Shown here piece by piece: positions 1 through 61,203 of a stretch of 64,000 nt of DNA. Origin of the DNA: an uncultured Lachnospira sp. (lineage in GTDB: Bacteria > Bacillota > Clostridia > Lachnospirales > Lachnospiraceae). Location of the stretch: NCBI GenBank assembly GCA_946186125.1, contig CAMHLZ010000011.1, positions 1 to 64,000 of the forward strand, written 5' to 3'. A program made the position numbers and the translations under genes. Every line of letters begins with the position of its first letter. The stretch's first letter is position 1. Below the pieces are notes generated by a model. It searched no databases. It worked only from the letters and a program-made list of their open reading frames with translations, and was not told where the DNA came from.

Positions 1-186
1 TGTCTTCTGATGAACCGGATTTCGAGCCCGATTCTCCCATTCCGTTATGGTTTTGTGGCTGACTGCTGCTTCCTGAGCCGGCTTCTTTTCCACTGTCTTC
101 TGGTGAACCGGATTTCGAGCCCGATTCTCCCATTCCGTTATGGTTTTGCGGCTGGCTGCCGCTTCCTGAGCCGGCTTCTTTTCCTC
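1..186 (-). repeat. Tandem 93-bp repeat coding for a 31-residue tail unit
   Basis: Two almost identical 93-bp units start at positions 1 and 94. In the minus-strand frame each encodes a 31-residue block with DSGKEAGSGS, a Gln/Asn-rich centre and GMGESGSKSGS. Only scattered substitutions separate them, mostly silent or Ser/Gly changes. The array runs off the left edge, so the copy number is unknown. Confidence 0.9.
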
Positions 187-3133: not shown

Positions 3134-5078
3134 AAAACACCTCTTCTGCCCTGAACATATGACTTCTGATATCCGTCATATCCATCTTGCCAAACTTATA
3201 ATAATTACAACGATAGCTCGGCGTATACTTCGTCATCAACGGGTAATTACCAAATGTAACAATGATAGCATTACCGGTTGATTCTTTATTATTAAGTTTC
3301 TGAAGTTCTGAAGGATAAATAAGCGGACGTACCTGCGTCTGTGTGGATACGCTCATCTCTCCGGTCTTACTTCCCGTACTTGAAGATGTACTTGAGGTCT
3401 TAACTGTCTTATTACCACAAAGTTCTGAAAACTCTTTACATGTACCAATGTCATTTGAACCGATAAACATCTTCATCGCACAGTTAGACTTAACAATATC
3501 CGCAACCTGTTCTCCATACACCGCATTAAGCTGTGAATAAGACTGTACAACCATGTTAAACCATATTTTTCTTGAACGGCCAACTGTAATCATCTTATCA
3601 AACTTCTCTATCTTAGGCATATTACCAAACTCATCAAGTATAAAATAAACATTTCTCGGAAGTGATAAATCTTCTCTTCCTGATGCTACCTTAATCAAAG
3701 CCTTGTAAATGCATAGAATAAACACTGCCGCAAGACCATGTCTTGTATCCTTCTCATCCGGTATCTTCATAAACAACGCCATAGGCTTATCGGCAAACTG
3801 TGATGCATTGATATCAGTAGCTGAAGTAAGGCCACATATTCCCTGATCATTAAACATATTCAGCTTATCAAAGGTTATTGACATGTAAGAGCTCATCGTC
3901 TGATCAGCTGCTCCAAGCACCTGTCTCGAAAGTGTCACTGCCTGTGAAAGCGGACTTCTTCCTTCAAAATATTTTTTCAACGCAGAATAATTATCAGTAC
4001 TATTAGTCAATATCTTATTAATATTAAAAAAATTAAATTTATCCTTTGTCATATTTAATTCCGGATTTTGGGAGTCTTCAAGCATTGCCAGACATGTCGC
4101 CAATATTATGGAACGTGCTCCCTTCTCCCACAGTGGATCTTTCTCATTTGTGATAGGACAAAGAACAGATACAAAATCATTTAAATCTTCATACATTTCA
4201 TCATAAATCTTTTGTTTTGCAACTGCTACCTCATCCTGACAGTGCTTCAGGTCAGAAAATGCCATTCCCTGATATTCAATCCACACATCACCCTCATCCG
4301 GTTCGTGCTCATCCATTCTTTTTAAGTCAGGATAAGCCTTCATGCTGTCTCTGTGTGCCTTCATCCCTTTTCCGGCATTTACAAAATCCTGATACATATC
4401 CCAAATGCCACCTAACGGATTCCAGCGGCTTGATGAATATGTATCTCGTAAATCAAGGACTTTAACATCATACCCTCTCGAAACCAGGTATTCCGAATGC
4501 ATATCAAACAATTCTCCCTTAGGATCCGTCATAATCATGCTGCTTCCTTTACCTGCTGCTCCAAGCAACTGTATCATTGGATTGATAAACGTGGTAGTTT
4601 TACCGGAACCGGTAGCACCGATAACAAGTGAGTGTGCACCTGACATAAAGTTACAATGCAAAACTCCTCTTTTATCCAGAATCGCTCTGACAGGAACTCC
4701 GTCATTTTTACATTCCTCCGCCGTTTCATAAGTAAACGGAGCAAAATTGTTATCTCTCTCCTTATTCGTCATAAACCTGCTGTTTTCCAGAACACTGGTT
4801 ACGTCACCATTCTTTCTACTTCCAAATATCTTATCACTTGATATTCCAAGATTGTCCATATTATTAATAATATAAACAACACTTAACATTACCATAGCAA
4901 AAAGTCCCAATCCCCATGTTTGAGGCTTTAACAAAACCTCCAAAGAAAATACGTATTCTTTTCCATCCGCCAAGTCTCCCACATACAAAAGAATCGTCTC
5001 TAAGACAACTCCGGTTAATATAACTCCAAATAGAAAAATCAACGGATAAATCCATCTATAAGTCTTATTAGTTTTCAT
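3078..5078 (-). CDS. VirD4/TraG-type type IV coupling protein (T4CP)
   Basis: The protein has 666 residues. Two N-terminal membrane helices (about 10-33 and 55-72) precede a VirD4-type ATPase. Walker A is GATGSGKT (154-161), Walker B is YFILDEFGN (478-486), and the family motifs MTDPKGELFD and RSRKIWFNMVVQSYSQL are visible. Coupling proteins recruit the relaxosome or protein substrates to the secretion channel and drive transfer. The start at 5078 has GAGGAGG upstream. It lies directly downstream of the pilin-like gene, separated by a strong hairpin, and overlaps the next gene. With no relaxase in the window, DNA transfer cannot be told apart from protein secretion. Confidence 0.93.
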   Translation of the reverse strand: MKTNKTYRWIYPLIFLFGVILTGVVLETILLYVGDLADGKEYVFSLEVLLKPQTWGLGLFAMVMLSVVYIINNMDNLGISSDKIFGSRKNGDVTSVLENSRFMTNKERDNNFAPFTYETAEECKNDGVPVRAILDKRGVLHCNFMSGAHSLVIGATGSGKTTTFINPMIQLLGAAGKGSSMIMTDPKGELFDMHSEYLVSRGYDVKVLDLRDTYSSSRWNPLGGIWDMYQDFVNAGKGMKAHRDSMKAYPDLKRMDEHEPDEGDVWIEYQGMAFSDLKHCQDEVAVAKQKIYDEMYEDLNDFVSVLCPITNEKDPLWEKGARSIILATCLAMLEDSQNPELNMTKDKFNFFNINKILTNSTDNYSALKKYFEGRSPLSQAVTLSRQVLGAADQTMSSYMSITFDKLNMFNDQGICGLTSATDINASQFADKPMALFMKIPDEKDTRHGLAAVFILCIYKALIKVASGREDLSLPRNVYFILDEFGNMPKIEKFDKMITVGRSRKIWFNMVVQSYSQLNAVYGEQVADIVKSNCAMKMFIGSNDIGTCKEFSELCGNKTVKTSSTSSSTGSKTGEMSVSTQTQVRPLIYPSELQKLNNKESTGNAIIVTFGNYPLMTKYTPSYRCNYYKFGKMDMTDIRSHMFRAEEVFYDVDERNKKILGDKEKVS

Positions 5079-5234: not shown

Positions 5235-5624
5235 TTAAGAATTGTTCTTAACCCATGTCTGCATAATAGGCATCAAGAGTTTTAATACAAGCATCAGTAC
5301 AAATATAAGAACAAAACCGATGATTGCATTCTTAAGATGTGTCTTTGCCTTTTCATGTTCCTGTGGCTCCTCTGTCTTTGCAAATTTCACGCCAAGCACC
5401 ACACAGTAAATAGTTCCGACTGCTCCTACTATAGCGAGAATCGGATTCAAAAGACTGTTTATTAAATTAACAACCTTGTCTGAAACTTTTGTAAAATCAG
5501 CACTTCCATTTGCAGTAGTCGCAGATTCTGATGCCCATGCAGTTATCGCGGAGTTCATAGTAACACCAATCAAACACATTAAACCTACCACTTTTCTTTT
5601 TAGATTCCTTAATCTCTCTTTCAT
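5235..5624 (-). CDS. VirB2-like pilin-type conjugation protein (Maff2/Mbov_0395-like)
   Basis: The protein has 129 residues with an N-terminal signal-like segment ending near AWASES. Two membrane helices follow (about 58-80 and 100-120), separated by a short charged loop with AKTEEPQEHEKAKTHL. This resembles the small pilin-like proteins of Gram-positive integrative elements. The start at 5624 has TAGGAGG nine bases upstream. It heads the series toward VirD4, the Ig-like protein and the VirB6-like protein. Two promoters with the TTTGTCA direct-repeat architecture stand in tandem upstream, suggesting high or tightly controlled expression. It probably forms the surface filament or a channel-lining subunit; the family call comes from size, topology and position. 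Confidence 0.8.
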   Translation of the reverse strand: MKERLRNLKRKVVGLMCLIGVTMNSAITAWASESATTANGSADFTKVSDKVVNLINSLLNPILAIVGAVGTIYCVVLGVKFAKTEEPQEHEKAKTHLKNAIIGFVLIFVLMLVLKLLMPIMQTWVKNNS

Positions 5625-5658: not shown

Positions 5659-5693
5659 ATGATATCAAACCTTCTATGACAAAACTGTGACAG
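5659..5693 (-). promoter_or_regulatory. TTTGTCA direct-repeat promoter, proximal to pilin-like gene
   Basis: On the minus strand CTGTCA (5688-5693) and TTGTCA (5677-5682) are exactly 11 bp apart. Twelve bases later comes the -10 hexamer TATCAT (5659-5664), preceded by TG one base away (extended -10). The inferred start of transcription, near 5652, lies just upstream of the pilin-like gene start. Confidence 0.75.
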
Positions 5694-5739
5694 TCTTATC
5701 TATATGCCTGATATACTGTGTTTTTATCTTACATATGTT

Positions 5740-5774
5740 ATAATAACATGCTACTACTGACAAATCAGTGACAA
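5740..5774 (-). promoter_or_regulatory. TTTGTCA direct-repeat promoter, distal to pilin-like gene
   Basis: On the minus strand TTGTCA (5769-5774) and TTGTCA (5758-5763) are 11 bp apart, followed after 12 bp by TATTAT (5740-5745) with an extended TGT. It has the same orientation and geometry as the proximal copy, so the pilin-like gene has tandem promoters. Confidence 0.75.
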
Positions 5775-5793
5775 AATAAAACATTTTAAATTA

Positions 5794-8700
5794 TTACATC
5801 ATCGCCGGTCCTAACTGAGGAGAACTTTCCACTTCAGGTACTTTAAGTTCAGCTTTCTTCTCACGAGCAGATTCCATCTCTTTTTCAGGTGTATTCTCTG
5901 CTTCTTTTATCATCTGTTCATCCAATATCTGTTTCTGCTCGACAATAGTTTCTTTAAGCAATTCTGTTCCCCTGTCCTCAGCCAAAAACCTTTTAATACT
6001 GCCCTGCGATATATTTGATGCTTCCTGTTGAAATGCCGGAAGTCTGTCTACTCCCGATGTGTAATCATATGCTTCCGGATCAAGCCGGATGTTATTGTTT
6101 GCAGCATAGGCTATGAATTTTTCTGCCACAATATCCTTCATATAACCTTTTGCCAGTTTTAAGTCTGCATCATTAAGTTCACCTTCTTTTTTGCCAAGCT
6201 CTGCCAGTTTAAGTCTGGAATCTTTCGCCCTCTCCATTACATCAGCCTGATTCGGATTGTCAATCTTACCAGATTTTAATAAATCCTCACTTTTTCTATT
6301 CTGTTCCTGAACAATCCTATCCAGTTTTACATCTGACATTTTTGCATATGTCTGTTCTTTTTCCATCTTCTCTACAGACGGAAGATTAGATACGGTTATA
6401 TCTCCATCTTTTTCAGCCACCGTAACATTGCCAAACAATCTTCCATTTACAATGCTTCCAAAATTTCTGTCATAGGTTTCCTGATTAAGTGACAGGTTGC
6501 CGTTAAATTCCTTTAATTTTGCATCATTAGTCATGCCATTAATTAAATTTTTGGCTCGTTCAGGCTCTTCATTATTCCTTAATAATCCTGTTACCGCTGC
6601 GTCCGGATTATTCTTTTGTGCCTCTCCGATTAAATTCCTTGTAGTAGTTGCTATAACAGCATTTTCCATTACCTTGGACTTTAACATATTATTTTCCGGA
6701 TTCTCTTCGCTCTTAACCACGTTTTCGTGCATTTTTTTTGCAGAAGACGTCAATGTCGATACCAGGTATATATCATTTTTCATTTCCTGTCTATGCCCGC
6801 CAAAGTTAATGTCTTTACCATCAAGTTCTTTTGCAATGGATATATATTGTTCCTTACAATTATCCATCGCCTTGAAACTTTCATTCATTGTCTGACATAT
6901 ATGTCCAAGATTAGCACATTCTTCTGATTGTAAAAAAGACGGATCTGTCAAATCAAAATTCTTCGCATAATCATCCATCATCTTCATGCATTTTTTTTGT
7001 CCCTGATAAACTGTAGCTGCCAGCCATTTCTGATTTTCTTCACGTCCGGCGCTTATATGTTTTATTACCTCCTTCCCTGCATTTGCTTTTTCTTCCTTAA
7101 GGCTGTCCGGATTCACGATATCTTCAAGTTCATAATCTCCGCTTGCCATAAGATACATCTCTCCGAGCGCCTGAATTCCGCTATTTGTAACCGCATATTG
7201 ATGTGGATTATTCATCTGTCTTACATCAACATTTCCTGTATAAGCTTTTTTACATACATCACTACCTAAATCCACCTGTTTTGAGTATGCATCTGCTTCT
7301 TTTTCTTTTGCAACCGCCTGTAAATCTTTCACATTTACAGTTTTCTGTGCCTTTAATTCTGCTTCAGCTTCCTTTTTTATGTCATCCTGCAGACTTTCTA
7401 CCGAATCAATATTTAACTTCATGCATTCTCTGACTTTTATCGCACAATCAATACGTTTTATCGTATCCTTATCGTTTTTTTCAAGATTTCTCTTTGTCTC
7501 CTGTGCATTCACATAGACATTCGCAGCCTCCATAAGTTCAGAGCCTTTCTGTCTGTATGCATCAAGTTGTTCACTTGTTACATCTCCTGGAGCAGAAGCC
7601 ATATTGTCAGCCAGTGTCTTTAACTCACCTGCCGTCTTCTTAATATTTCTAAATTCTTCCGGAGCCTTGAAAAACCTGCCATCTAATTTGCTGATATCAT
7701 CTCCAAGTTCTTTAATCAACTGTGCATTTTGTTTTAAACTAACCTCATCTATACCTTTAAGCTTCGCGATATCACCAAATTCACGATCCCAGAAATCTTC
7801 TGACTTGATACCTTCAATTTCTTCAAACTCATTGTCTTTATCTTCGCTTTTCCCCGGCTGATCTTCCTTCAGCAAATCTTCATCTGATAATTTACTGGCG
7901 GTTACTTCTTTTGGCTTTTTTGGTTCTTTTTCAACCAGCCCAGTGCCATATGTTAATTCAAAATCCGTAAACTCAAATTCATAACCTTTTTCTTTGGCTA
8001 ATTTTTCAAAATCAGCCGAATTATTTTGTGTAAACTCTTTCAGGTCATTAACAAAATCCAGACGCTTATAACTGTTTGAATTAGCAGGATCACCTTTATA
8101 TGTAACATATTGATCACATGCTTTATCCAGACGTTTTGTTGCCAGCATATAATTACGCAGTTCTTCTTTTGTCGGATTCTCGCCCATCCTCTTCGCTATG
8201 TAATTCAAATCTTTCAAACAATCTTTTACATTTTTGAACTCATTTGATGATTTTACGTAAAACGGGTCTACCTCATCCAGGTCATCCATAAAATCATTAA
8301 TATTTTGTGCATTGGTCCTTAAATTGTCCTCATCAAGCTTCTTAACCTTCAAAGATTCGATGTACTGTTCCTTCCAGTAATCTCTGTTTGCCTCAGCAAA
8401 TTGCTTTTTTTCTGTCACAAAACTAATACGTTCACGTGCAATCTTGGAAGGTTTTTTGTCTTTTTTCTTATGATCAAGATAATTATCTGCATCTTCCGCA
8501 AGTGTACGGTATGCTTTTGAAAACTTTCTCAATTCTCTTGACGTTGCAGGAATCGTCATTTCTTTTGAAAGACGGTCGACTTCCTCCATAGAACCTTTAA
8601 AATACTTAAATTCATCAGATGACCGAATATACGAAGGATCGATTTTATCCATTTCTTTCATGCCCTCGTCTATTTTTTCACGATGTTTTTCAAATTCTGA

Positions 8701-9060
8701 ACGTGATAATTCCGTCATACCTGTCTGTTTCTGCATAAACATCGCCATTTCGGCTTTTTCTTTTTCTTTTTTTCGCTCTTCTTCAAGTCTCTTAATTTGT
8801 TCTTCGTTCCTTTTATTGCCTTCGTCTATCTTTTTCTGAAGCTCCTCATATCGTCTTTTTTCCTCCTCCTCCCTCTTTTTTCTTTCTTCCTTATCCTGCT
8901 CCTGTCTTTGCTGATAAAGAATATCCTGCTCTTTTGCCGTCGGCTCAGAGGATATTTCTTCTTTTTCCTCTTCTTTTGTCACTTCATTTTCACCTTTTCC
9001 GGCTTCTTCTGTATCGTTGTTACCTGTATTATTATCGTTATTATTTTCTGTATCCGGCAT
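5794..9060 (-). CDS. Giant helical/coiled-coil protein A, paralogue of the 10548-13832 product
   Basis: The product has about 1088 residues, no signal peptide and no membrane helix. The N-terminus (1-130) is extremely charged, with runs of E, K and R typical of a coiled coil. A helical module with the signature D-x-DP-x-(F/Y)-x-x-S-x-EF-x-x-(F/V)-K recurs near residues 148, 270 and 468, with a diverged copy in the second half. The C-terminal half aligns by eye with the other giant protein, including a final Glu/Lys-rich tail. I chose the ATG at 9060 (MPDTEN), which has GGAG eight bases upstream. The in-frame ATG at 9102 would sit about 9 bases after the predicted transcription start and has no ribosome-binding site. 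No family is recognised. Candidates are a secreted substrate or a cytoplasmic scaffold of the secretion system. Confidence 0.75.
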   Translation of the reverse strand: MPDTENNNDNNTGNNDTEEAGKGENEVTKEEEKEEISSEPTAKEQDILYQQRQEQDKEERKKREEEEKRRYEELQKKIDEGNKRNEEQIKRLEEERKKEKEKAEMAMFMQKQTGMTELSRSEFEKHREKIDEGMKEMDKIDPSYIRSSDEFKYFKGSMEEVDRLSKEMTIPATSRELRKFSKAYRTLAEDADNYLDHKKKDKKPSKIARERISFVTEKKQFAEANRDYWKEQYIESLKVKKLDEDNLRTNAQNINDFMDDLDEVDPFYVKSSNEFKNVKDCLKDLNYIAKRMGENPTKEELRNYMLATKRLDKACDQYVTYKGDPANSNSYKRLDFVNDLKEFTQNNSADFEKLAKEKGYEFEFTDFELTYGTGLVEKEPKKPKEVTASKLSDEDLLKEDQPGKSEDKDNEFEEIEGIKSEDFWDREFGDIAKLKGIDEVSLKQNAQLIKELGDDISKLDGRFFKAPEEFRNIKKTAGELKTLADNMASAPGDVTSEQLDAYRQKGSELMEAANVYVNAQETKRNLEKNDKDTIKRIDCAIKVRECMKLNIDSVESLQDDIKKEAEAELKAQKTVNVKDLQAVAKEKEADAYSKQVDLGSDVCKKAYTGNVDVRQMNNPHQYAVTNSGIQALGEMYLMASGDYELEDIVNPDSLKEEKANAGKEVIKHISAGREENQKWLAATVYQGQKKCMKMMDDYAKNFDLTDPSFLQSEECANLGHICQTMNESFKAMDNCKEQYISIAKELDGKDINFGGHRQEMKNDIYLVSTLTSSAKKMHENVVKSEENPENNMLKSKVMENAVIATTTRNLIGEAQKNNPDAAVTGLLRNNEEPERAKNLINGMTNDAKLKEFNGNLSLNQETYDRNFGSIVNGRLFGNVTVAEKDGDITVSNLPSVEKMEKEQTYAKMSDVKLDRIVQEQNRKSEDLLKSGKIDNPNQADVMERAKDSRLKLAELGKKEGELNDADLKLAKGYMKDIVAEKFIAYAANNNIRLDPEAYDYTSGVDRLPAFQQEASNISQGSIKRFLAEDRGTELLKETIVEQKQILDEQMIKEAENTPEKEMESAREKKAELKVPEVESSPQLGPAMM

Positions 9061-9117
9061 TTTCATCTCTCCAATCCTTATCATATTCGTAAAAATCGGC
9101 ATACTAATATAGTTTGT

Positions 9118-9152
9118 ATTGTATCATACCATCTGTGACAAATCAATGACAC
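9118..9152 (-). promoter_or_regulatory. TTTGTCA direct-repeat promoter of giant protein A
   Basis: On the minus strand GTGTCA (9147-9152) and TTGTCA (9136-9141) have the 11-bp period, followed after 12 bp by TACAAT (9118-9123) with an extended TGA. The predicted start of transcription near 9111 supports the downstream translation start at 9060. Confidence 0.75.
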
Positions 9153-9159
9153 TATTTTG

Positions 9160-10455
9160 CTATTCACTTTTAGGAATAACCACAGTTACTTTAGTTCCTA
9201 TGCCTTTTTCACTCTCAATTTTAAGCTCTCCTTTTGAAATTAGTCTTAATCGTTTTTCTACATTGTAGATACCTACATGTTCACTGCCATCACTAAATTC
9301 CTTATCTACATCAAACCCGACTCCGTTATCTTCCACAATAACCAAAAATTCTGTCTCTTCCTCCACAGACGATATAGTAATAATTCCATTTTCGCTATTT
9401 TTTTTCAGGCCATGATTTATCGCATTTTCAATAAGCGGCTGTAGTGTAAGAAAGGGAATACAAAAATCTTCAGCTTCTATATTCTTCCTTATCTCTATTT
9501 TATCACCAAATCTGACGTTCATAATATATAGATAATTATCAACAAGCTGCAATTCATTTTTAAATGAAATAATCTGTTTTTTTGTCATAATATCAGTGCT
9601 TTTTCTTAGATAATTTGATAAATTATCCAGCATTTCCACCGCTTTATCCGAATCCTCTGTACACAAGTATCTGATAGATGCCAGCGTATTGTATATAAAA
9701 TGAGGCTTTATCTGTGATAATAATAAGTTCACCTGTGTCTGCTCTAATTCATGTTCACGTTCATACAGTTTCTGCCTTATCTCCATTTTATAGACACCGT
9801 AGAAATAATAATAGTATATCATTATATCGATAATAAGCATGTTTATCATTACTCCTCTTGCCATATCTTTTATTTCAAGCCAGCATGCAATCAGTGTAAA
9901 GATACTAATCATCATAACTACAAACGCTTTGTTTTTATCTTTATCCTTGATTAATTTTATTGAATATACCATTATCCAAATCATATATATGACTGAAGTA
10001 ATATAAGATATATGACTTAACGGTCCTCCATGCCAGTTACCATTGTTGTCAAAATAAAACACAATAGGTATTCTGCAAAATGACATAGTTTCAAAAACAA
10101 GTGTAATTATTTCCGGAATATATAGAACTATTTTGTGTCTGGTATTCGCAATAAGATTTGCTTCCATAAACGCAATGCTGCAAAATAATATGTGTTCCAA
10201 AAAAGTTTTAAAATATTGAAAATTTATAAACGGAGTCACATTCATTCCATCATGCGGTGACTCTAAAACCTGATAGACATATTTTTGCACTCCCGTAATT
10301 ACTATCAATATCATTGTCGAACATACAAGCATCCATATCCACTCCATACCCGGTGGCTTGTCATCTTTATCCGTTAATATTAAAACCGCCAGCATAATCA
10401 GCATCACCAGTGATATATAATTATTTGCTATAAATTCCAATATAATTTTAATCAT
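9160..10455 (-). CDS. LytS/YehU-type membrane sensor histidine kinase
   Basis: The protein has 431 residues. About six or seven membrane helices fill residues 5-225, with no obvious extracellular sensor domain. The His_kinase H-box QIKPHFIYNTLASIRYL follows, with His about 252. The ATPase boxes are PLIENAINHGLKK (N box), DNGVGFD (G1) and GIGTKVTVVIP (C-terminal glycine box). Such kinases usually pair with a LytTR response regulator, but none is in the window. It lies downstream of the terminator of giant protein gene B, with about 35 bases left for a promoter, so expression may depend on readthrough. The ligand is unknown. It may act upstream of the shared direct-repeat promoters, although the 11-bp repeat spacing is not the LytTR pattern. 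Confidence 0.88.
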   Translation of the reverse strand: MIKIILEFIANNYISLVMLIMLAVLILTDKDDKPPGMEWIWMLVCSTMILIVITGVQKYVYQVLESPHDGMNVTPFINFQYFKTFLEHILFCSIAFMEANLIANTRHKIVLYIPEIITLVFETMSFCRIPIVFYFDNNGNWHGGPLSHISYITSVIYMIWIMVYSIKLIKDKDKNKAFVVMMISIFTLIACWLEIKDMARGVMINMLIIDIMIYYYYFYGVYKMEIRQKLYEREHELEQTQVNLLLSQIKPHFIYNTLASIRYLCTEDSDKAVEMLDNLSNYLRKSTDIMTKKQIISFKNELQLVDNYLYIMNVRFGDKIEIRKNIEAEDFCIPFLTLQPLIENAINHGLKKNSENGIITISSVEEETEFLVIVEDNGVGFDVDKEFSDGSEHVGIYNVEKRLRLISKGELKIESEKGIGTKVTVVIPKSE

Positions 10456-10491
10456 TTTTTATCTGCTAATCCTCCTTTCGCATGCGATACA

Positions 10492-10526
10492 AAAAATGCC
10501 GGACATTTTTACCTGTCCGGCATTTT
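10492..10526 (-). terminator. Intrinsic terminator of giant protein gene B
   Basis: AATGCCGGACA and TGTCCGGCATT form an 11-bp GC-rich stem around a TTTTTACC loop. On the minus strand it is followed by TTTTTT. It stands about 20 bp after the stop codon of the 10548 gene. Confidence 0.88.
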
Positions 10527-10547
10527 AACTATAAATACAACTATAAG

Positions 10548-13500
10548 TTACATATGAATTACATCATCACTCTTTAATACCGGATGCTTTATTTCTTCTT
10601 TCTCTTGCACTTTTACAGTGGTATCTTTTTCTAATGACGTTTCAACCGACTTCTGTGCAGATGTCTGCTCAAGATTTTTCTGTATGTCAACCATTGACTC
10701 CTTCACAAGTTCAATAGCTTTATCCTCATATGCCATCTCTCCTAAGAATCCCATTCCCAGATATTCTGTGTTTTTTTCAAATACCGGCAAAGTTTCCACC
10801 GTCTTTGCCATAATTTTCTGCGCATTTTCAGGGATTTTTGCACCCGCTTTTTCAAGTGTTCCTACCATCTTTTCCGTCAAAATATCCCTTACGCAATTCT
10901 TTGCCTCTTCTCTTTGTTCGCCGACTAAAGGAGTCTTGTTGTCAATCATCTCTTTGATTTTGTTTACAGCATCCTTAGCCTTTTCGATGTAAGTCTTATG
11001 TACCGGAGATGCTTTCTCTGACAGCTTATCATATTTTTTGATTGCATCTTTAGTCATCTTACCTATCTGTCCTGGACTTATCATCTCCATATTCTCATAC
11101 TTAATATCCGCCTTAAGTTGATTAACGGTTGGAAGGCCTGTAAATTTTATTCCTTCTTCATCAGACACACTTTTTACCTTCATATCCTTAAGCATACTTC
11201 CATCCAAAATCTTAGGAAGAACACCACGCGAAAGTGACTCATCATTTGATATATCACTACCCAAAGACAAAACCTGTCCGCATACAGAAATAAATATATC
11301 ATTTTTTTCCATTTTTATGAAGCTATCTTTATATCTCTCCGAATACGTTACATCTCTGTTTTGATCATTTACCTTATTAATTTCATCAAGCTTAACTTTA
11401 AACTGTACTGCATGCATAAGCGCGCTTCCAAATATCCTTGAGTAATTTTCAGGGTCATTATTTATATCAGTTACAACTTTGTTCAAATTATCTGAATCAG
11501 ATGTAAGAGCCGGACCCATTTTTTCGGTAATATAATCTTTAAAATCAGCATATTCCTTCATCTCCGGATGATCCTTCTGTACAAGTTCCATCAATTCGTC
11601 CTTACAATGAGCCATCTCCTGCCATGAATCAAATATTACATGTGACATTTTACCAAATGCAATATATTTTTCATCCTTAACGAGATCAGGATTTGTATAA
11701 TCTATTTGCTTTTCATATTCATCTTTAAGTTTTATGGCAGACTGTAATCCATTGTAGTAAATATTTGCAAGATATTTTTGATTCTCCGGAGTCTTATTAT
11801 CCATACGTTTAAATATTTCGTCAAACTTCTCCTGCTTTTCTTTTTGGAACTTATCCGGACTTAAAAGTTCCTCCATGGTATACTTATTTTCCATCGACAT
11901 TGCTATAATACTGGCTGTCTGAACTGCTGAACGCTTAACACTGTAATCACTTTTTGATGCCTTCATATCCGCTTCCGTATATTTATCACCATAGAATACG
12001 TCGCTGCGCCTCTCAATGTTGTACTTAGCTCCCGTATTATTTATCTGGTTGCAATAATTACTTACTTTTTCAGCCGCTGAGCTTTTCTCTACATTATCCC
12101 TGTATTCTTTGCTCATGCTCTCCTGAAGTTCTCTGTCTTTTTCTTCATCTCTTTGTATTAATATATTATTAATTGATTCCCTGTTAGATAAAATATGCAC
12201 CTTAAGGTCTTTAATGGCACTTACTCTGTTCTTTTCATAATCCCCTTTTGGATTTTTCTTATAATCCAGATATTTATTAGACAGCTCTACAATATTTTTT
12301 GTCATCTTATCATATTTTTTCAAGTCATCCGCAGTCGGCTCTTTTCCTTTTTTGGCGAGCTCCTGTGCAAACTTTTTAAATTCCTTAAGTTCTTTCTTTA
12401 CATTTTTAAATTGATCCGATGACGTCTTATACCATGAATCCGTAGAATCTAAATCATCAAATAAATCCGAAATAATTTTCGCATTATTTTTTAAATCGTT
12501 CGTACTAAAACTATTAATCCCATATTTCTTAGTGCCCATTGATACTTTAGATTCGTTTATAAACTTTGTTGCCTGTTTTTCTGTTTTTTGAATTTCCCTG
12601 TTAAATTCTGTTTCATGTTTTTTATTAATTTCTTCTGCTGCATTCGGAAGTTTTACATCCGGAAACATCTCTTCAAGATTTTTATTCCTGATTGCATTTA
12701 TCATGTCATAGATTTCATCAGGTTCTGCCTCCACCATATCCTTATATTCATCTGAATTTATAATTGCATCATGATAGATTCTTTTTAACTGTTCTTCACC
12801 GTCAGGTTGCTGCATAATCATCTGAGTGTCAGAAATTCTGTGTTTACTGTGAATATCAAAGATGCCGTCAGATAATTTTTTCATCTCACCACTAGATGTA
12901 AGCTGTTCATATTCACTGTCCGGATCAGTAGCGATATCGGTTATTTCTATATCAGCTTTTCTCATCATGTCATCATTAAAATCTGATTTAAGCAAACTTC
13001 GATTTCCGTCCTCCGAATAAGATACCGCTCTCATATAACTATAAAACAGAATGTCTTCAACCATTCGCTTTCTTTCGTCGCTTCCTGCTACAGGTGTATT
13101 ATTCAGAATTTCATTTTCAATATCAGCACATTTTATCTTAGCATCCATCTGTTTTTCAGTATTTAACAGACGAATCTGTTCTATATCACCATAAGTACTT
13201 CCTGCATTAAGAGGATTGTTCTTAAGAAGTTTTGCTCCAAGTAAAACGGATTGAAGTTCGTCATTTGTTATATGCGATAAACTTTCTTTTTGATTATTGC
13301 CGACAGCCATCATTCTTGATGACAATACACAGGCATCTATATAATCCGTAAGCATTTTCTTTGCCGGTTCTTTATTTCCTTTTTTGTATTCTTCTATGGC
13401 ATCTTTTGCTTCCTGTCTGGCCTTTGGGATAAGATCTTCAAATTCTCCTACACGATTATCACCGCTAATATAATTATTGATAACCATGCACTGATTAAAA

Positions 13501-13832
13501 CCTAATACATTTGCACTTGAACCAATTGAAGAGCTTGTCATAACATGGTCACTAAGTCTGTCCGGACGCAAAATTGCACCCATTACAATTGCAGCAACTA
13601 CTTCCTCCGGCAAATCTTCAGGTGGGTCAATCACTATGTTGTCATATTCTGCTTTCTTCGGAAACGGTTTATGACCACCCTCATTACCAAACATCTTTCC
13701 GTTTGAACCATATCTTGCAATCTGTTTTGAAAACGGATTACTCTCCTTATAAGCATTAATCGCTTCCTGTCTGTCTTTTTTTAGCTTTTCCTGATTTTCT
13801 TTTGAAGTATTTCCATATTCCTTTCTTGCCAT
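10548..13832 (-). CDS. Giant helical protein B, paralogue of the 5794-9060 product
   Basis: The product has 1094 residues and no signal peptide or membrane helix. Residues 1-430 form a region not matched in protein A (basic N-terminus MARKEYGNTSKENQEKL, then a helical domain). Near 455-480 it carries the shared module LFDDLDSTDSWYKTSSDQFK. The C-terminal 600 residues follow protein A block by block (for example VRDILTEKMV against MKDIVAEKFI) and end in a charged tail. The start at 13832 has AGGAGGAACAGAT upstream. It has its own direct-repeat promoter and terminator, so it is a monocistronic unit. The function is unknown. Size, duplication and co-regulation with secretion genes make a secreted substrate or structural partner plausible, but that is inference. 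Confidence 0.78.
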   Translation of the reverse strand: MARKEYGNTSKENQEKLKKDRQEAINAYKESNPFSKQIARYGSNGKMFGNEGGHKPFPKKAEYDNIVIDPPEDLPEEVVAAIVMGAILRPDRLSDHVMTSSSIGSSANVLGFNQCMVINNYISGDNRVGEFEDLIPKARQEAKDAIEEYKKGNKEPAKKMLTDYIDACVLSSRMMAVGNNQKESLSHITNDELQSVLLGAKLLKNNPLNAGSTYGDIEQIRLLNTEKQMDAKIKCADIENEILNNTPVAGSDERKRMVEDILFYSYMRAVSYSEDGNRSLLKSDFNDDMMRKADIEITDIATDPDSEYEQLTSSGEMKKLSDGIFDIHSKHRISDTQMIMQQPDGEEQLKRIYHDAIINSDEYKDMVEAEPDEIYDMINAIRNKNLEEMFPDVKLPNAAEEINKKHETEFNREIQKTEKQATKFINESKVSMGTKKYGINSFSTNDLKNNAKIISDLFDDLDSTDSWYKTSSDQFKNVKKELKEFKKFAQELAKKGKEPTADDLKKYDKMTKNIVELSNKYLDYKKNPKGDYEKNRVSAIKDLKVHILSNRESINNILIQRDEEKDRELQESMSKEYRDNVEKSSAAEKVSNYCNQINNTGAKYNIERRSDVFYGDKYTEADMKASKSDYSVKRSAVQTASIIAMSMENKYTMEELLSPDKFQKEKQEKFDEIFKRMDNKTPENQKYLANIYYNGLQSAIKLKDEYEKQIDYTNPDLVKDEKYIAFGKMSHVIFDSWQEMAHCKDELMELVQKDHPEMKEYADFKDYITEKMGPALTSDSDNLNKVVTDINNDPENYSRIFGSALMHAVQFKVKLDEINKVNDQNRDVTYSERYKDSFIKMEKNDIFISVCGQVLSLGSDISNDESLSRGVLPKILDGSMLKDMKVKSVSDEEGIKFTGLPTVNQLKADIKYENMEMISPGQIGKMTKDAIKKYDKLSEKASPVHKTYIEKAKDAVNKIKEMIDNKTPLVGEQREEAKNCVRDILTEKMVGTLEKAGAKIPENAQKIMAKTVETLPVFEKNTEYLGMGFLGEMAYEDKAIELVKESMVDIQKNLEQTSAQKSVETSLEKDTTVKVQEKEEIKHPVLKSDDVIHM

Positions 13833-13880
13833 ATCTGTTCCTCCTATTCATAAATATATCTATCTTCACATCTCCCCTTT

Positions 13881-13915
13881 AATATACTCCTGCAAATATG
13901 ACAAAACAGTGACAA
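13881..13915 (-). promoter_or_regulatory. TTTGTCA direct-repeat promoter of giant protein B
   Basis: On the minus strand TTGTCA (13910-13915) and TTGTCA (13899-13904) are 11 bp apart, followed after 12 bp by TATATT (13881-13886). This is the only copy without the extended TG. Confidence 0.7.
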
Positions 13916-13923
13916 AGCAAAAA

Positions 13924-15507
13924 TTATCCCTCATAAATCATTCCAAGCATTGTAATATCATCAAATTGAGGGGCATCACCCACAAAGCTTTCGATATCTT
14001 TTTTTACTTCAACAAGTAATTCTTTTACATCACAATCTTTATGACTATTCAGAGATTCAAGCATTCGTTCGTTTCCAAACTGCACATTTTCACTGTTTGT
14101 TGCCTCAGGTACCCCGTCAGTATATAAGAACAGCATATCTCCCTCTTCAATATTCAATTCATATTCGCTGTATACGAAATCTTCCATTCCTGCCAGCACA
14201 AATCCATGTTTATCCTTAATCAGTTCAAAGTCTTTGCCTGCACGTTTGACTACAGGATACTCATGTCCTGCATTTGCAGCTACCAGCTTTCCTGTCGATA
14301 TTTCCAAAATTCCAAGCCAGACCGTTACAAACATATCCGCCTCATTATTCTCACAAAGCTGGTTATTTACTGTCTCAAGAATTGTCTTAGGTGAAGAATT
14401 ATTCTGCGCGCAGTTCTTTAATAATGTTTTTGTAATCACCATAAATAATGCTGCAGGTACACCTTTTCCTGATACATCTGCCATTACCATAACCAGATGG
14501 TCCTCATCCACCATAAAGAAGTCATAAAAATCTCCCCCGACCTCTTTTGCCGGATTCATCGTTGCATAAAGGTCAAACTCCGTATACTCCGGAAACGGTG
14601 GAAATATGCTCGGAAGCATATCTGCCTGAATCTGCGTTGCCACGTTTAATTCCGCACTGATTCTTTCCTTCTCAGCCGTAATAGTCGTCAGATTATCAAT
14701 ATAAGTATGGATTTCTTTTTCCATAATCTTAACTGAATTTGTAAGTTCTCCTATCTCGTCGTTAGAAAGTATCTGTAATTTTTCAATCGGTGACTCTTTT
14801 TGTTTTTCTTCATTTTTCTGTTTATCAGAGATGAAGTTTCTCGTTGCTTCAGCTAATCTTTTAATAGGACGTGTCACCATATTTCTCGTGTATAATACCA
14901 TACTTATCGTCGATATAAATGCCGCTATAAGTATTACTATCAAAACTATATTAAGAAATTGATGCCTTTCTCCCATAACCTGATTCATTGAAAGGTCAGC
15001 TCCGACTAAAGCCACTGTATTTCCATCCGAATCCTTTATTGGCTGAAATACTGAACACATCCATCCTACACCCTCTTCATTACTGATAAATGCAGGAATT
15101 CCATCCTCAAGTTTACTTGTATCCGCTCCTTTCGACACATCAAACTCTTCTCTGAAATCCATCGGATTTTCTTCATCAGTGTCCATAATGGCTATCGCCT
15201 TATCTCCTCTGATTACTTCTATATACAGATATTCTATATCATTTTGATTTGTAATTTTTTTAAGAATGGATAACATCTCTTCATACTCATCATCCATTTC
15301 ACGTTTATCAGCATAATCACCGATAATCTCGCTGTCCATCATGGATGCGGCAGTCTCAGCTACATTCGTAATAGTTTCTTTATAGTACTTGTCTATAGTA
15401 TTCGAATATGTACGATAACTGATGTATACTGAAGTTACAGCTGATAAAAGTGATGCTGATATAATCATTATCACCATTTTTGTTATCAATGACATCTTTA
15501 TCTTCAT
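13924..15507 (-). CDS. Membrane-bound SpoIIE/RsbU-type PP2C phosphatase with HAMP domain
   Basis: The protein has 527 residues. An N-terminal helix (about 8-28), an extracellular Cache-like sensor (30-185) and a second helix (about 187-208) are followed by a HAMP segment (RNMVTRPIKRLAEATRNF). The PP2C core has metal-binding acidic motifs GGDFYDFF, DVSGKGVPAALF, YTDGVPEATN and FDDITMLGM. Enzymes of this type dephosphorylate anti-anti-sigma (STAS) proteins in partner switching. It is last in the operon whose second gene encodes an RsbW-like ATPase domain. The start at 15507 follows AGAGGAAAAACAAT. No STAS partner is in the window. Confidence 0.9.
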   Translation of the reverse strand: MKIKMSLITKMVIMIISASLLSAVTSVYISYRTYSNTIDKYYKETITNVAETAASMMDSEIIGDYADKREMDDEYEEMLSILKKITNQNDIEYLYIEVIRGDKAIAIMDTDEENPMDFREEFDVSKGADTSKLEDGIPAFISNEEGVGWMCSVFQPIKDSDGNTVALVGADLSMNQVMGERHQFLNIVLIVILIAAFISTISMVLYTRNMVTRPIKRLAEATRNFISDKQKNEEKQKESPIEKLQILSNDEIGELTNSVKIMEKEIHTYIDNLTTITAEKERISAELNVATQIQADMLPSIFPPFPEYTEFDLYATMNPAKEVGGDFYDFFMVDEDHLVMVMADVSGKGVPAALFMVITKTLLKNCAQNNSSPKTILETVNNQLCENNEADMFVTVWLGILEISTGKLVAANAGHEYPVVKRAGKDFELIKDKHGFVLAGMEDFVYSEYELNIEEGDMLFLYTDGVPEATNSENVQFGNERMLESLNSHKDCDVKELLVEVKKDIESFVGDAPQFDDITMLGMIYEG

Positions 15508-15535
15508 ATTGTTTTTCCTCTCTTCCTAATTTTTT

Positions 15536-16387
15536 CTATTGTAAAGTCAAGGACAGCCAAAGGGATGCTGCCGGTACATCCCCCATTCCGGCATTAATAC
15601 GCTTTCCTTCATTTTTCGCTGTCTGTATTCTTACCTTCATCTGTGATACTTTATACAGGTTCAAAATACTGCTCTGATATAGTTTAAGTAACTCCAAGGG
15701 AATCGTCGTTTCCTCTACATGCATTACTTCATCTTTTATTTCTCCTATTATTGCAAATTGCTGGTTTTCTATTTTTAAAATATCACAAAATCCACCACAG
15801 AATCGTTTTTCCTTTAAACAGTACCCAAGCATCTCTTTATCCCATACAACAAAAGATTCTTTATCAAATCGCCGGTTACGCATTATCTCATACGTTTCCG
15901 CTTCCAACTCTTCTCTTTCCGGCAGACATTGCTCATCATTTTTTAATGCAAATGAAATCTCATTACTATCATAATAATACATAAGTCCTTTTTTTTCATA
16001 AAACGGTCTCATCTCCGGCAAAGCATATAATATAATATGTGCACTCTCATACTCCGCCTTTTTGAATATTTCCTGATACATTCCGGAAAACACTTTATTT
16101 CCCCTATAGTCACGCAACACACCTCCCGCATATAGATAATATGCTTTTTTTGTATGCTGCTCTCCCGTTCCTTCCGATTCTTTCCATTTTACCAGACATG
16201 GAAAAAGATAAAATGCAGATATAATCATTTCATTTTCAAAACCGGCAATCACCTGAATATTTTCAGGTGCATTTTCAAAGAAAAAATCGATATAGGTCTG
16301 TGTGTCATTAAAACACTCCATCCATACTTTCTTTAACCCACTCTGAACCGCATTGCTTTTCCAATCGGTAATCCACTTAAATTCCAT
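15536..16387 (-). CDS. GNAT-family N-acetyltransferase
   Basis: The protein has 283 residues. The central region YAGGVLRDYRGNKVFSGMYQEIF is the acetyl-CoA-binding motif A of GNAT enzymes, followed by ALPEMRPFYEKKGLMYYY (motif B). The C-terminal 120 residues resemble an SCP2-like tail, as in Eis-like acetyltransferases. The ribosome-binding site GGTGAGGAT precedes the ATG. It lies 8 bp after the MATE fusion gene and 28 bp before the phosphatase gene, so it belongs to one operon. The substrate is unknown. Confidence 0.82.
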   Translation of the reverse strand: MEFKWITDWKSNAVQSGLKKVWMECFNDTQTYIDFFFENAPENIQVIAGFENEMIISAFYLFPCLVKWKESEGTGEQHTKKAYYLYAGGVLRDYRGNKVFSGMYQEIFKKAEYESAHIILYALPEMRPFYEKKGLMYYYDSNEISFALKNDEQCLPEREELEAETYEIMRNRRFDKESFVVWDKEMLGYCLKEKRFCGGFCDILKIENQQFAIIGEIKDEVMHVEETTIPLELLKLYQSSILNLYKVSQMKVRIQTAKNEGKRINAGMGDVPAASLWLSLTLQ

Positions 16388-16395
16388 ATCCTCAC

Positions 16396-18138
16396 CTACA
16401 CCAATATATTTAACGTGTTAAAATTCAAATACCTGCGATAGTAAAATTTTTTTGCCTTTTGCTTAACGATAAAGATTCCAAGTCCCCCAAGCTCACTGTC
16501 ATCATCTTCTTCTACTTTTCCCGCCTCTAATTCAAACGGATTAAAAGCTAAGGCATTATCCCTGATACATAAGCGGAAATCCCCGTTATATTCTGCAATG
16601 ATTGTAAGGAAAATACTTATTGAATCATCTTCTTTTGCCGTCGCATTATCTATAATCGCAGAGCAAATCTCCTCTGCTGTAACCGTCACGTAATAATTTT
16701 GTTTTGCGGTCGCATCAAATGATTCGCAAAAGGCTTCGATATTTTCTATAAGCTGTCCCATATTGTTTTCATTTTTTCCCAGAACCATACTATAGATTCT
16801 GTCATCTTTCGGAAGTTGCTCTGAGCTCTGCAAAAAAGGCATCCTGCGAACAAGCAAAAATATTATAAGGCATCCTGCTTCAGTCAACGGGAACAGCATG
16901 AAAAATCCACTTGTCGATAAATTGATACAGATAACAGTAAAATACAATAGCAACGCCAATCCTCTTAAAAACGATATCAGATATGCTTTTTTTAATTCTT
17001 CAACAGACTGATAGTATGCGGCTGCTATAATGTTTGCACCGGCAAAAACTCCTCCCGCACAATACAATCTGACTGCTGCTGCTCCGAGTCTTATCTCTTC
17101 TTTACTTTCAAGTCCGAATATTCCACATACCTGCTCAGCTCCGATAATAATCGTCATTAAAAGAATACTTCCAAGAATCAGCCCATAAAACAACGACATT
17201 CTAAAGCTCATCTTCTGTGCATCAATATTTCTTTCTCCATGGAATGTACTTGCAAGCGGCTGCAACGAATCACCTGCCGCATAAAAAAACAGGAGTCCCA
17301 CATACGACACATTTAAAACAACATCAAACACTGCCACTCCGGTACTTCCCTGTCTGTTATACAGTATGTGATTGACTATCATTATAAAAACAAATTGCAT
17401 AATATACTGGCTTGAGGTCGCCAGACCACTATTTAATATTTTGATAATTCTTTTTATATCCAGAACTGTCAGGGCAAGTTTAATTATATGTTTTTCCCTG
17501 CTAATCAAGTGAACAGATAAAATCAGCATAGACAACATCTGTCCTATAACAGTAGCCCATATACTTCCTGCCACACCTGTCTTAATTCCCAGAACCAGTA
17601 TGAAATTCAACACTACATCAACAACATTACCTATCGCAAATCCTATACCTGATAATTTTGGATTATCATCATTTCTGATAAATATACAAAACGGTGTATT
17701 AATAAAAAACACCGGTGCACAAACCAGCAAAATTCGTGCGTATTGATATGACAACTGATATAACTTTCCATCACCCGGTGTAGTACCCAGTACCCACAAA
17801 ACCTGTTTTGTAAAGAAAACGCCGGTTAATGAAAAAATTACTCCTATACAGAATAATACCAGCATAGTCATATTAAAAATCTTCCTTGCTTCACTTATTT
17901 TTCCTTCACCTGTAAGTCTTGCAAATTCAACGGAACCTCCAACTCCAAGTCCCATGTAAAACACTGCATAGACCATATATATCGGAGCCGTTATAGCTAT
18001 TGTAGCCAGACCTACACTTCCCGTACTGATTCCAACCACAAGTGAATCCGCTATATTTGCAATTGCTAAACCAATCGCTGCCAAAATGGACGGTCCCATC
18101 AATTGCCAGAACATTTTTTTCATAAACTGATTCTTCAC
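16396..18138 (-). CDS. MATE-family transporter fused to an RsbW-like HATPase domain
   Basis: The protein has 580 residues. Residues 1-440 form a twelve-helix MATE (multidrug/polyspecific exporter) fold. Residues about 460-580 carry an anti-sigma-type ATPase: the N-box region AEEICSAIIDNAT, the G1-like box IRDNALAFNPFE and the lid motif GGLGIFIVKQKAKKFYYRR. The start is GTG at 18138 with GAGG eight bases upstream, 2 bp after the previous stop. The fusion ties a transporter to a partner-switch kinase-like domain beside a cognate-looking PP2C phosphatase. Transport substrate and phosphorylation target are unknown. The domain assignments are firm; the signalling role is inferred. Confidence 0.85.
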   Translation of the reverse strand: MKNQFMKKMFWQLMGPSILAAIGLAIANIADSLVVGISTGSVGLATIAITAPIYMVYAVFYMGLGVGGSVEFARLTGEGKISEARKIFNMTMLVLFCIGVIFSLTGVFFTKQVLWVLGTTPGDGKLYQLSYQYARILLVCAPVFFINTPFCIFIRNDDNPKLSGIGFAIGNVVDVVLNFILVLGIKTGVAGSIWATVIGQMLSMLILSVHLISREKHIIKLALTVLDIKRIIKILNSGLATSSQYIMQFVFIMIVNHILYNRQGSTGVAVFDVVLNVSYVGLLFFYAAGDSLQPLASTFHGERNIDAQKMSFRMSLFYGLILGSILLMTIIIGAEQVCGIFGLESKEEIRLGAAAVRLYCAGGVFAGANIIAAAYYQSVEELKKAYLISFLRGLALLLYFTVICINLSTSGFFMLFPLTEAGCLIIFLLVRRMPFLQSSEQLPKDDRIYSMVLGKNENNMGQLIENIEAFCESFDATAKQNYYVTVTAEEICSAIIDNATAKEDDSISIFLTIIAEYNGDFRLCIRDNALAFNPFELEAGKVEEDDDSELGGLGIFIVKQKAKKFYYRRYLNFNTLNILV

Positions 18139-18140
18139 TT

Positions 18141-19022
18141 TTATAACCTCGATTCAACCTTCCAGACTTCATTCATCCGTACAGGCTTCATTTTTTGCTT
18201 ATGTATCCTGATTCCCTCTATATTCATATCATCATCACCATTAACATACGTATATTGATTTGGAATCACCTTAAACATCTGCTCTAACAGGTAAAACATC
18301 AAGCCTTCTTTTTTTTCGCACATCTTAGCAACCTGAATCCCATAGGTATCATTCGTAATTTCACAACCAATAGCTGTTGCCATAGGTTTTTCGTCCACAT
18401 ATACCAATACACCCAAAAGTCCTAACTCTGAAAAATTCTTTATTGCACTCTCAGCAACTGATATATCTTCCATTGTCATGTTACTTTTTTCTTCTATATA
18501 ATTTTTATTCCACCCTTCAACTACGGTCCTGCTGACAGATAAATTCTTCTTTGTCAGAATCTCTGTACGAAGCGTATAATTTGATGCAAGATGATTGATT
18601 TCCCGCCTTATCCTTTGATATTTTTTCCCCTTCTTTAAAATATGTTCCAGCCTGTCATAAATGTATTCATAGCTTCCACTGTCATATTCAAATTTAAAAA
18701 AGCCTTTAAACCTTTCTTCTATCATTTCTTTACTTGCTTCATCAACATAGAATAGCCTTAGTTCTTTATTTTCACAATTTGTCTGTATCCAATTAAGTAT
18801 TTTTTCTTTATTGCCGCATGGACAAAAATAGCTATTTTCTCCTTTTAATCTGTATTTGACTACAAAAAAATCTTCTTCAAGATATATAGACAGTTTCATT
18901 GTCTCCTGCCATAAAAACAATGTATAAAATGAATGTGACAATAATATATTGCCAGTATTTTTTCTAATTTGTTCAATCTGTTGTTTGTGCGATATTTGAA
19001 TTTTTGTATATTCCATATCCAT
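18141..19022 (-). CDS. DUF2156 / LPG-synthase C-terminal-like GNAT-fold protein
   Basis: The product has about 293 residues. It resembles the C-terminal domain of phosphatidylglycerol lysyltransferases: an N-terminal block with YTLFLWQETMKL, then YDRLEHILKKGKKYQRIRREINHL, then a second GNAT fold with GVLVYVDEKPMATAIGCEI. It lacks the multi-helix flippase half, so it is a soluble acyl- or aminoacyl-transferase-like protein of unknown substrate. I chose the ATG at 19022, which has AAAAGG seven bases upstream; a TTG at 19058 has no ribosome-binding site. It is first in the operon with the MATE fusion, GNAT and PP2C, and a direct-repeat promoter stands about 100 bp upstream. Confidence 0.78.
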   Translation of the reverse strand: MDMEYTKIQISHKQQIEQIRKNTGNILLSHSFYTLFLWQETMKLSIYLEEDFFVVKYRLKGENSYFCPCGNKEKILNWIQTNCENKELRLFYVDEASKEMIEERFKGFFKFEYDSGSYEYIYDRLEHILKKGKKYQRIRREINHLASNYTLRTEILTKKNLSVSRTVVEGWNKNYIEEKSNMTMEDISVAESAIKNFSELGLLGVLVYVDEKPMATAIGCEITNDTYGIQVAKMCEKKEGLMFYLLEQMFKVIPNQYTYVNGDDDMNIEGIRIHKQKMKPVRMNEVWKVESRL

Positions 19023-19118
19023 TCCCATGCCTTTTACATTATTCCAGATATTTATCAATACGCAATTTTACATTTTCCTGCAAATTACAGAAAAAGAACC
19101 GATAATCATACGTATATT

Positions 19119-19153
19119 ATAATAACATACACCATATGACAAATCTATGACAA
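19119..19153 (-). promoter_or_regulatory. TTTGTCA direct-repeat promoter of the DUF2156-MATE-GNAT-PP2C operon
   Basis: On the minus strand TTGTCA (19148-19153) and TTGTCA (19137-19142) are 11 bp apart, followed after 12 bp by TATTAT (19119-19124) with an extended TGT. The geometry matches the promoters of the secretion-linked genes 5-13 kb away. Confidence 0.75.
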
Positions 19154-60784: not shown

Positions 60785-60823
60785 TATTGAACTTACATAG
60801 ATTTGTTGTGTTTCTAAAAAACA

Positions 60824-61198: not shown

Positions 61199-61203
61199 AA
61201 TTA

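Follow-up and report, generated by a model that had tools for sequence, protein, structure and literature searches.

The stretch of DNA analysed here (the window) comprises 64,000 nucleotides (nt) of contig CAMHLZ010000011.1 from an uncultured Lachnospira sp., whose 3.39-Mb genome we call G000 (locus contigs C11 and C12). It opens with genes of a type IV secretion system (T4SS), followed by two giant proteins, a histidine kinase and a signalling operon, among which stand five copies of a promoter element, here termed the box. Counterparts were examined chiefly in the near relative G003 (record CADADA010000002.1, uncultured Lachnospiraceae RUG13174; locus on contig C2), in G093 (JAQXIP01, a Clostridiales metagenome-assembled genome) and in G351 (RUG12922). 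The genes and boxes are as follows, each box being given with its repeat, the distance to the -10 hexamer, and that hexamer.

2–1993, minus strand: VirB6-like membrane protein, truncated by the contig end (NF045848, 154 bits, cut-off 90)
2045–3133, minus strand: 362-amino-acid (aa) conserved T4SS-locus protein with a C-terminal membrane helix, 36% identical to a G093 homologue in the same place
3078–5078, minus strand: VirD4-type coupling ATPase, CD1115 family (PF02534; NF045973, 291.9 bits, cut-off 250)
5235–5624, minus strand: VirB2-type pilin, T4SS_pilin (PF18895, E = 1.9e-15; NCBIfam NF045849 above cut-off)
5659–5693, minus strand: box 2, pilin-proximal; CTGTCACAGTTTTGTCA, 12 bp, TATCAT with TGA; identical in G003
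5740–5774, minus strand: box 1, distal of the pilin pair; TTGTCACTGATTTGTCA, 12 bp, TATTAT with TGT; identical in G003
5794–9066, minus strand: giant protein 1, predicted export substrate, no Pfam match
9118–9152, minus strand: box 3, upstream of giant protein 1; GTGTCATTGATTTGTCA, 12 bp, TACAAT with TGA
9160–10455, minus strand: histidine kinase, predicted sensor (PF06580/HATPase)
10548–13832, minus strand: giant protein 2, predicted export substrate, no Pfam match; box-headed relatives in G351
13881–13915, minus strand: box 4, upstream of giant protein 2; TTGTCACTGTTTTGTCA, 12 bp, TATATT, no TGn
13924–15507, minus strand: SpoIIE-type PP2C phosphatase with a sensor-like N-terminus (PF07228, E = 2e-46)
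15536–16387, minus strand: GNAT acetyltransferase (PF13527)
16396–18138, minus strand: MATE transporter fused to an RsbW-like HATPase_c_2 domain (PF01554 and PF13581)
18141–19058, minus strand: phosphatidylglycerol lysyltransferase C-terminal-domain (LPG-synthase-like) protein, first after box 5 (PF09924, E = 2.8e-20)
19119–19153, minus strand: box 5, upstream of the LPG-synthase-like/MATE/GNAT/PP2C operon; TTGTCATAGATTTGTCA, 12 bp, TATTAT with TGT

All five boxes are intergenic and match the pattern TGTCA-N6-TGTCA-N12-TANNNT exactly, in agreement with the original prediction, which had placed five minus-strand sites at these positions with an 11-base-pair (bp) period and 12 bp to the -10 hexamer. 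No further copy occurs in the window at up to one mismatch, as had also been proposed, and 100 dinucleotide-preserving shuffles of the window gave a chance expectation of 0.23 sites (largest 1) against the 5 observed. The repeat itself requires a looser wording than first given: the TGTCA pair is exact at every site, whereas TTGTCA-N5-TTGTCA is exact in only three, site 5659–5693 starting with CTGTCA and site 9118–9152 with GTGTCA. The layout is best described as two TTTGTCA heptamers with a 4-nt spacer, then 12 nt and a -10 hexamer, usually with TGn (7+4+7+12+(-10)). The extended TGn is found at four of the five sites, as claimed, and at 21 of the 32 collected overall; no search pattern required it, while the 11-bp period of all 32 is imposed by the pattern. 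There is no proper -35 at 17 bp, the hexamer there agreeing with TTGACA at 1 to 4 of 6 positions. Since two boxes stand in series before the pilin, the target units number four, not five. The -10 of box 2 ends 34 nt before the pilin ATG. For giant protein 1, the first ATG of the open reading frame (ORF) at 9102 lies only 15 nt past the -10, and a start at ATG 9066 or 9060, behind a ribosome-binding site, is likelier. The kinase gene follows that of giant protein 2 and is thus probably transcribed from box 4.

We predict that these boxes, together with the sixth described below, are activator-dependent sigma-A promoters; their geometry is that of OmpR/PhoB-fold activators. Promoters of an alternative sigma factor would share the rigid spacing to the -10, and the locus does hold an RsbW-like HATPase gene of the partner-switching type alongside PP2C; yet this reading is highly improbable, because each site needs two tandem copies one helical turn apart, the -10 is of the housekeeping type with TGn at the frequency just given, and between genomes the two copies of the half-site change in step, a pattern to be expected if the regulator is a dimer.

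Scanning the whole of G000 returned six exact matches, the five of the window and one on contig C12, against two for the reversed pattern used as the genome-wide background control. Nine additional matches at one mismatch were discarded as background because the reversed control yields seven at up to one mismatch, and most matches at two or three mismatches were rejected likewise. The scatter through coding sequence that had been feared did not occur. Box 6 (C12:59426–59459) ends 32 nt upstream of the ATG of a 255-aa response regulator (C12:58629–59393). C12 ends within the same VirB6 gene that opens the window; the break falls in the repeat-rich C-terminal part of this gene (window 1–1993; L016 19102–20000), with QPQNHNGMGESG repeats at both flanking contig ends. 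It is this break that hid the regulator from the original prediction, and the sixth site, the kinase–regulator link and the recurrence in other genera all lay beyond its view.

G003 carries the region unbroken. There VirB6 is intact (1004 aa), and six boxes, five exact and one with one mismatch, lie on one strand of C2 within 31 kb (C2:58612 to C2:89954). The order is box, 345-aa protein, LPG-synthase-like protein, MATE/HATPase, GNAT, PP2C, box, giant 2, kinase, box, giant 1, two boxes, pilin, VirD4, 362-aa protein, VirB6, VirB4, 1913-aa protein, box 6 and regulator, followed by proteins of 364 aa, HATPase, 481, 366, 798 and 379 aa. What had been described as secretion genes plus a signalling operon is therefore one T4SS locus with its own two-component system. 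The 345-aa gene, of membrane type, separates box 5 from the LPG-synthase-like gene in G003 (L112 8611–10628); it is missing in G000 (window 18141–19153), where only its last codons seem left, so that box 5 now heads the LPG-synthase-like gene.

The repeats are conserved at orthologous loci, and the lack of conservation that had been feared did not occur. Between G000 and G003, boxes 1, 2 and 4 lie in identical sequence (230/230 and 170/170 bases) and the box 3 region is identical at 185/190, its first half-site reading TGTTA in G003; with surroundings this similar, conservation of boxes 1–4 says little. Box 5 says more: its region is identical at only 178/320 positions, yet both heptamers and their spacing are unchanged, and the block that starts with the box and runs 14 nt beyond the -10 retains 46/52 positions (counted by eye).

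Pfam recognises in the regulator only a receiver domain (PF00072, residues 3–112); neither PF00486 nor the BTA domain is among its matches at E ≤ 0.1, and about 20 low-confidence residues follow the winged helix. The predicted model of the full regulator matches the OmpR/PhoB-type regulators DrrB, VanR, RpaA and KdpE, and VIA-align with the full regulator gave a list dominated by the receiver domain, with CosR aligned over 201–203 residues. The output domain (136 residues) was modelled with a predicted local distance difference test score (pLDDT) of 82.0 and a predicted TM-score (pTM) of 0.79. In Foldseek, the AfsR chains 8hvr_I (TM 0.68, E 2e-4) and 8k60_J were its sole hits below E 1e-3, followed by EmbR, ArlR and PhoB; compared with the PDB by sequence, it returned noise only. 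On its predicted model, the output domain is likely SARP-like and closest to AfsR, although we do not file the regulator as a SARP because it has a receiver domain and no BTA domain.

The original prediction had named an OmpR/PhoB-type activator, and of this the fold agrees with the box geometry; PhoB itself is not supported, as the likely activator has no PF00486 match. Binding of the boxes by a classical PF00486-type regulator, for example the phosphate regulator, would recall the E. coli Pho box, described in an excerpt of PMC4415409 as two 11-nt units of which CTGTCAT is most conserved, and G000 encodes seven PF00486 proteins. None of the seven lies on C11 or C12, however, the regulator is not among them, and the box co-occurs with and adjoins the C12-type regulator across genera, all of which makes such a regulator improbable. 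Phosphate control, the physiological link of the PhoB model, was rejected, as no phosphate gene follows any of the six genomic sites.

The kinase and regulator genes are apart in G000, the regulator directly behind box 6 and the kinase behind giant 2 (box 4). A kinase matching that of the window nevertheless adjoins the regulator orthologue in eight of nine loci (L117 and L119–L125, the near-identical L116 being excluded), with only a 90-aa kinase fragment called in L123; the sole exception is L118 (G093 contig C35), where no related kinase was seen beside the regulator. The box likewise stands beside regulator or kinase genes in G093 (C35 and C11), G243, G040, G416 (Ruminococcus RGIG2388) and G349. 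No TTTGTCA-type box lies upstream of the regulator in the stretch shown of L117, a scan of L120, L123 and L124 found no TTTGTC-type box near it, and L120–L125 hold only weak two-mismatch matches there.

A single activator-type regulon of the pilin, both giants and the MATE/PP2C operon, as first proposed, is supported by other genomes. The box is found upstream of the pilin in eight of the nine T4SS genomes in which that region is visible (G000, G003, G093, G351, G415, G349, G264 and G179), G172 being the sole miss; in G006 the region lies beyond the contig end. G093, whose regulator, VirD4 and pilin are 60%, 78% and 47% identical to those of G000, has nine boxes, before the pilin, before proteins of 575, 404, 758, 697 and 805 aa, and on three contigs away from visible T4SS genes, where they precede a 422-aa protein, a 350-aa protein and an ORF cut by the contig end; a further match on its contig C27 was rejected as lying inside a long ORF. 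G351 (VirD4 81% identical to G000) has eight, of which seven precede the pilin, two PI3/PI4-kinase-like proteins, two giant-2 relatives or their operons, a 423-aa and a 1456-aa protein. G415 (UBA1781) carries a box upstream of VirD4–VirB6–VirB4 and a TTTGTCT version upstream of the pilin. Single stray matches in 30 of the 32 genomes of one scan were set aside as background, only G000 and G093 exceeding two.

The grammar of the box was examined independently of its spelling in 13 T4SS stretches from 10 genomes not used for the motif, drawn from 16 further VirD4-bearing genomes (G065, G130, G133, G180, G360 and G379 were left out). A query for any TTGT-containing heptamer pair before a -10, with a spacer of 11–13, found 10 tandem sites at period 11 against 0–4 at periods 8–10 and 12–15. 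Twenty shuffles gave between 0 and 5 sites (mean 0.95), and a single site turned up in 119,798 bases of control sequence, which excluded the stretches that hold known Ruminococcus boxes. Three TTTGTTA-N4-TTTGTTA sites occur in G349, one of them before the pilin and behind the regulator and kinase genes, and TTTGTTG-type sites occur in G179, G264, G094, G006 and G234. The half-site spelling thus drifts among genera (TTTGTCT, TTTGTTA, TTTGTTG) while the spacing stays constant. Tandem TTTGT-type repeats followed by a -10 were found at period 11 in four of 30 loci of the regulator family (L137 of G093, L144, L159 and L162) and at period 9 in one, whereas 20 loci of other response regulators yielded a single such repeat, at period 15, and none at period 11. 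L159 (2624, minus strand) and L162 (2307, plus strand) show TTTGTG-type heptamer pairs with the same period and spacing, adjoining further members of the regulator family.

Across 397 genomes of the family, the exact box is found in 12 of 64 with the regulator family (called at E ≤ 1e-50) and in 10 of 333 without (p = 2.1e-5), or in 9 of 61 against 10 of 333 when G000, G093 and G351 are omitted (p = 7.6e-4). Close VirD4 relatives are present in 19 of the 397, and the regulator family in 10 of these 19 against 54 of the other 378 (p = 1.7e-4).

Several observations weigh against the proposed regulon. The exact box is absent from 52 of the 64 regulator-family genomes, a count for which a single half-site spelling was searched; the reversed control leans the same way (7/64 against 16/333, p = 0.059), so that part of the association may reflect composition or genome size; and the genomes counted are related to one another. 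In four of the 10 further T4SS genomes (G347, G139, G350 and G172) the stretch examined shows no tandem site, the genome whose regulator scores next best (G210, 304 bits) lacks a convincing box, and the eighth box of G351, on C74, has no evident target. The boxes of G416 (L203 2969, L203 4834, L204 2838 and L205 2986, plus strand) lie divergent from a kinase–regulator pair and upstream of other proteins, whose N-termini resemble signal peptides, and this genome yielded no close VirD4. The box therefore marks the regulator, not the T4SS as such: the G416 boxes are a separate, T4SS-independent regulon, and box and regulator go together, with the T4SS as one of their uses.

The coupling ATPase, VirB4 ATPase, VirB6 channel and VirB2 pilin all lie in one locus. 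VirD4, VirB6 and the pilin exceed the NCBIfam cut-offs of conjugation families; VirB4 reaches 523.5 bits against a cut-off of 590 for the nearest NCBIfam model, but PF19044 is present. The two giants are paralogues (24% identity over 679 aa, E = 9e-30), and giant 2, which has no PDB hit by sequence, matched at least four proteins in a protein search. The 798-aa protein gives a weak PI3/PI4-kinase match (25.4 bits, below the cut-off of 27.1), and a PDB sequence search with it led nowhere. Large proteins with such a weak PI3/PI4-kinase-like core, several of them box-headed, form a family seen in three genera, with the following members.

L016, 1508–3904, minus strand
L119, 4995–7517
L196, 3–2633
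L197, 2452–5517

Large soluble proteins associated with the box share a common tail, in which a stretch rich in E, D, P and Q is followed by G, P, M and hydrophobic residues (for example EEPGLGGPGL, EPLLGGPGI, EEMNIGGPGV and SPQLGPAMM). The 15 complete soluble proteins encoded directly behind a box have on average 2.73 G+P+M among their final 8 residues, compared with 1.07 for 44 proteins of the window (p = 1.5e-4), and 5.00 E+D+P+Q among the 12 residues before those, compared with 2.34 (p = 1.5e-7); for all 32 tail candidates the values are 2.44 (p = 2.7e-4) and 4.34 (p = 3.8e-6). These figures are to be taken as a lead, because the candidates were hand-picked after some tails had been seen, many are paralogues and the controls come from one genome. 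Two large proteins omitted from the set, of 840 aa (L119) and 1087 aa (L196), lack the tail.

The T4SS could instead serve ordinary conjugation for an integrative element, decayed or resident, with the large proteins being structural or regulatory parts and not cargo. The VirD4, VirB6 and pilin models are indeed named after conjugative elements (CD1115, MMCAP2_0566, Mbov_0395), and most known Gram-positive T4SSs move DNA, according to an excerpt of PMC12857230. A search confined to PF03432, however, found no relaxase on C11 or C12 (8 elsewhere in G000), on contig C2 of G003 (5 elsewhere) or in G093 and G351 (assemblies 88 and 90% complete). Box-headed proteins also stand on contigs without visible T4SS genes, in G093 (C15, C66) and G351 (C161, C222), and they differ between genera while VirD4 is 74–81% identical. 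We regard the conjugative interpretation as doubtful, though it is the most serious of the alternatives.

Taken as a whole, the regulatory statement that a SARP-like two-component activator drives the T4SS and its predicted cargo carries a probability of about 0.76; whether the cargo is really injected protein could go either way. In the proposed mechanism, the kinase (9160–10455) would phosphorylate the regulator (C12:58629–59393), two molecules of which would cover the pair of 11-bp units head to tail on one face of the DNA, ending 8 bp short of the -10 and replacing a -35 element. Positive feedback would come from box 6, ahead of the regulator, and from box 4, ahead of giant 2 and the kinase. 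Proteins headed by a box, among them the giants and the PI3/PI4-kinase-like protein of 798 aa, may then exit through the T4SS by means of their C-terminal tails, an export to which co-regulation and the shared tail point only indirectly. A second layer, of partner switching, is suggested by the genes for PP2C, HATPase and MATE and by the recurrence of RsbW-like, STAS and PP2C genes at the T4SS loci of G093, G349, G094 and G264.

Elsewhere in the window (59705–62031, minus strand), two adjacent proteins carry PT-HINT/intein-like domains, and one of them also matches Ntox28 weakly; small ORFs lie between and after them, and by its sequence this looks like a polymorphic-toxin cassette.

In its widest form, the proposal is that Lachnospiraceae of rumen and gut may possess dedicated protein-injecting T4SSs with giant, fast-evolving cargo, in which one two-component regulator with a SARP-like output domain switches on the machine, the cargo and itself through a tandem-heptamer promoter code that drifts in spelling between genera, is frozen in spacing and would list the cargo in each genome of this kind; we give this even odds. 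Whether Gram-positive T4SSs became dedicated effector translocators is, in an excerpt of a 2025 review, a long-standing question with one well-supported case (PMC12857230). The locus makes this question testable in non-pathogenic gut and rumen bacteria, since it offers a machine, candidate cargo, a candidate tail and a probable switch, and the box itself could be used to spot proteins predicted to leave through machines of this kind. It would also carry SARP-like control beyond the antibiotic genes of actinomycetes, into a two-component system of Firmicutes. In the open-access literature, judged by title and the start of the abstract, we found nothing on this regulon or on T4SS cargo in Lachnospiraceae.

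Among known systems, the closest in promoter layout are the SARPs. In an excerpt of PMC10936776, the direct repeats of SARP targets are spaced by 11 or 22 bp, with 8 bp between the 3' copy and the -10; at the afsS promoter AfsR occupies two such repeats of 11 bp, the upstream one over the -35 region. The present boxes keep the same distance, since the 12 nt that separate the heptamer from the -10 become 8 when 11-bp units are counted, and the output domain of the regulator is predicted to be closest to AfsR chains. Unlike a SARP, with its N-terminal DNA-binding domain followed by an all-helical BTA domain, the regulator has its output domain behind a receiver and no BTA domain was found; its hosts are Lachnospiraceae, not actinomycetes, and it is predicted to act on genes for secretion and cargo instead of antibiotic genes. 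The SARP-LAL regulator PimR, as far as the portion of PMC5930380 describes it, similarly uses 22-nt operators of two heptamers with four-nucleotide spacers, but with another heptamer, one target gene and a three-repeat main operator. PhoB and its Pho box differ in that the present regulator has no PF00486 match, its kinase is of the PF06580 type and its sites lack phosphate genes. On the side of secretion, the comparison is with the 89K T4SS of Streptococcus suis, a Gram-positive T4SS reported in excerpts of PMC12857230 and PMC4897608 to export a protein, the protease SspA-1. That system involves one protease on a pathogenicity island, whereas here many large proteins of unknown fold are predicted to be exported, and they are tied to their machine by a common promoter box.

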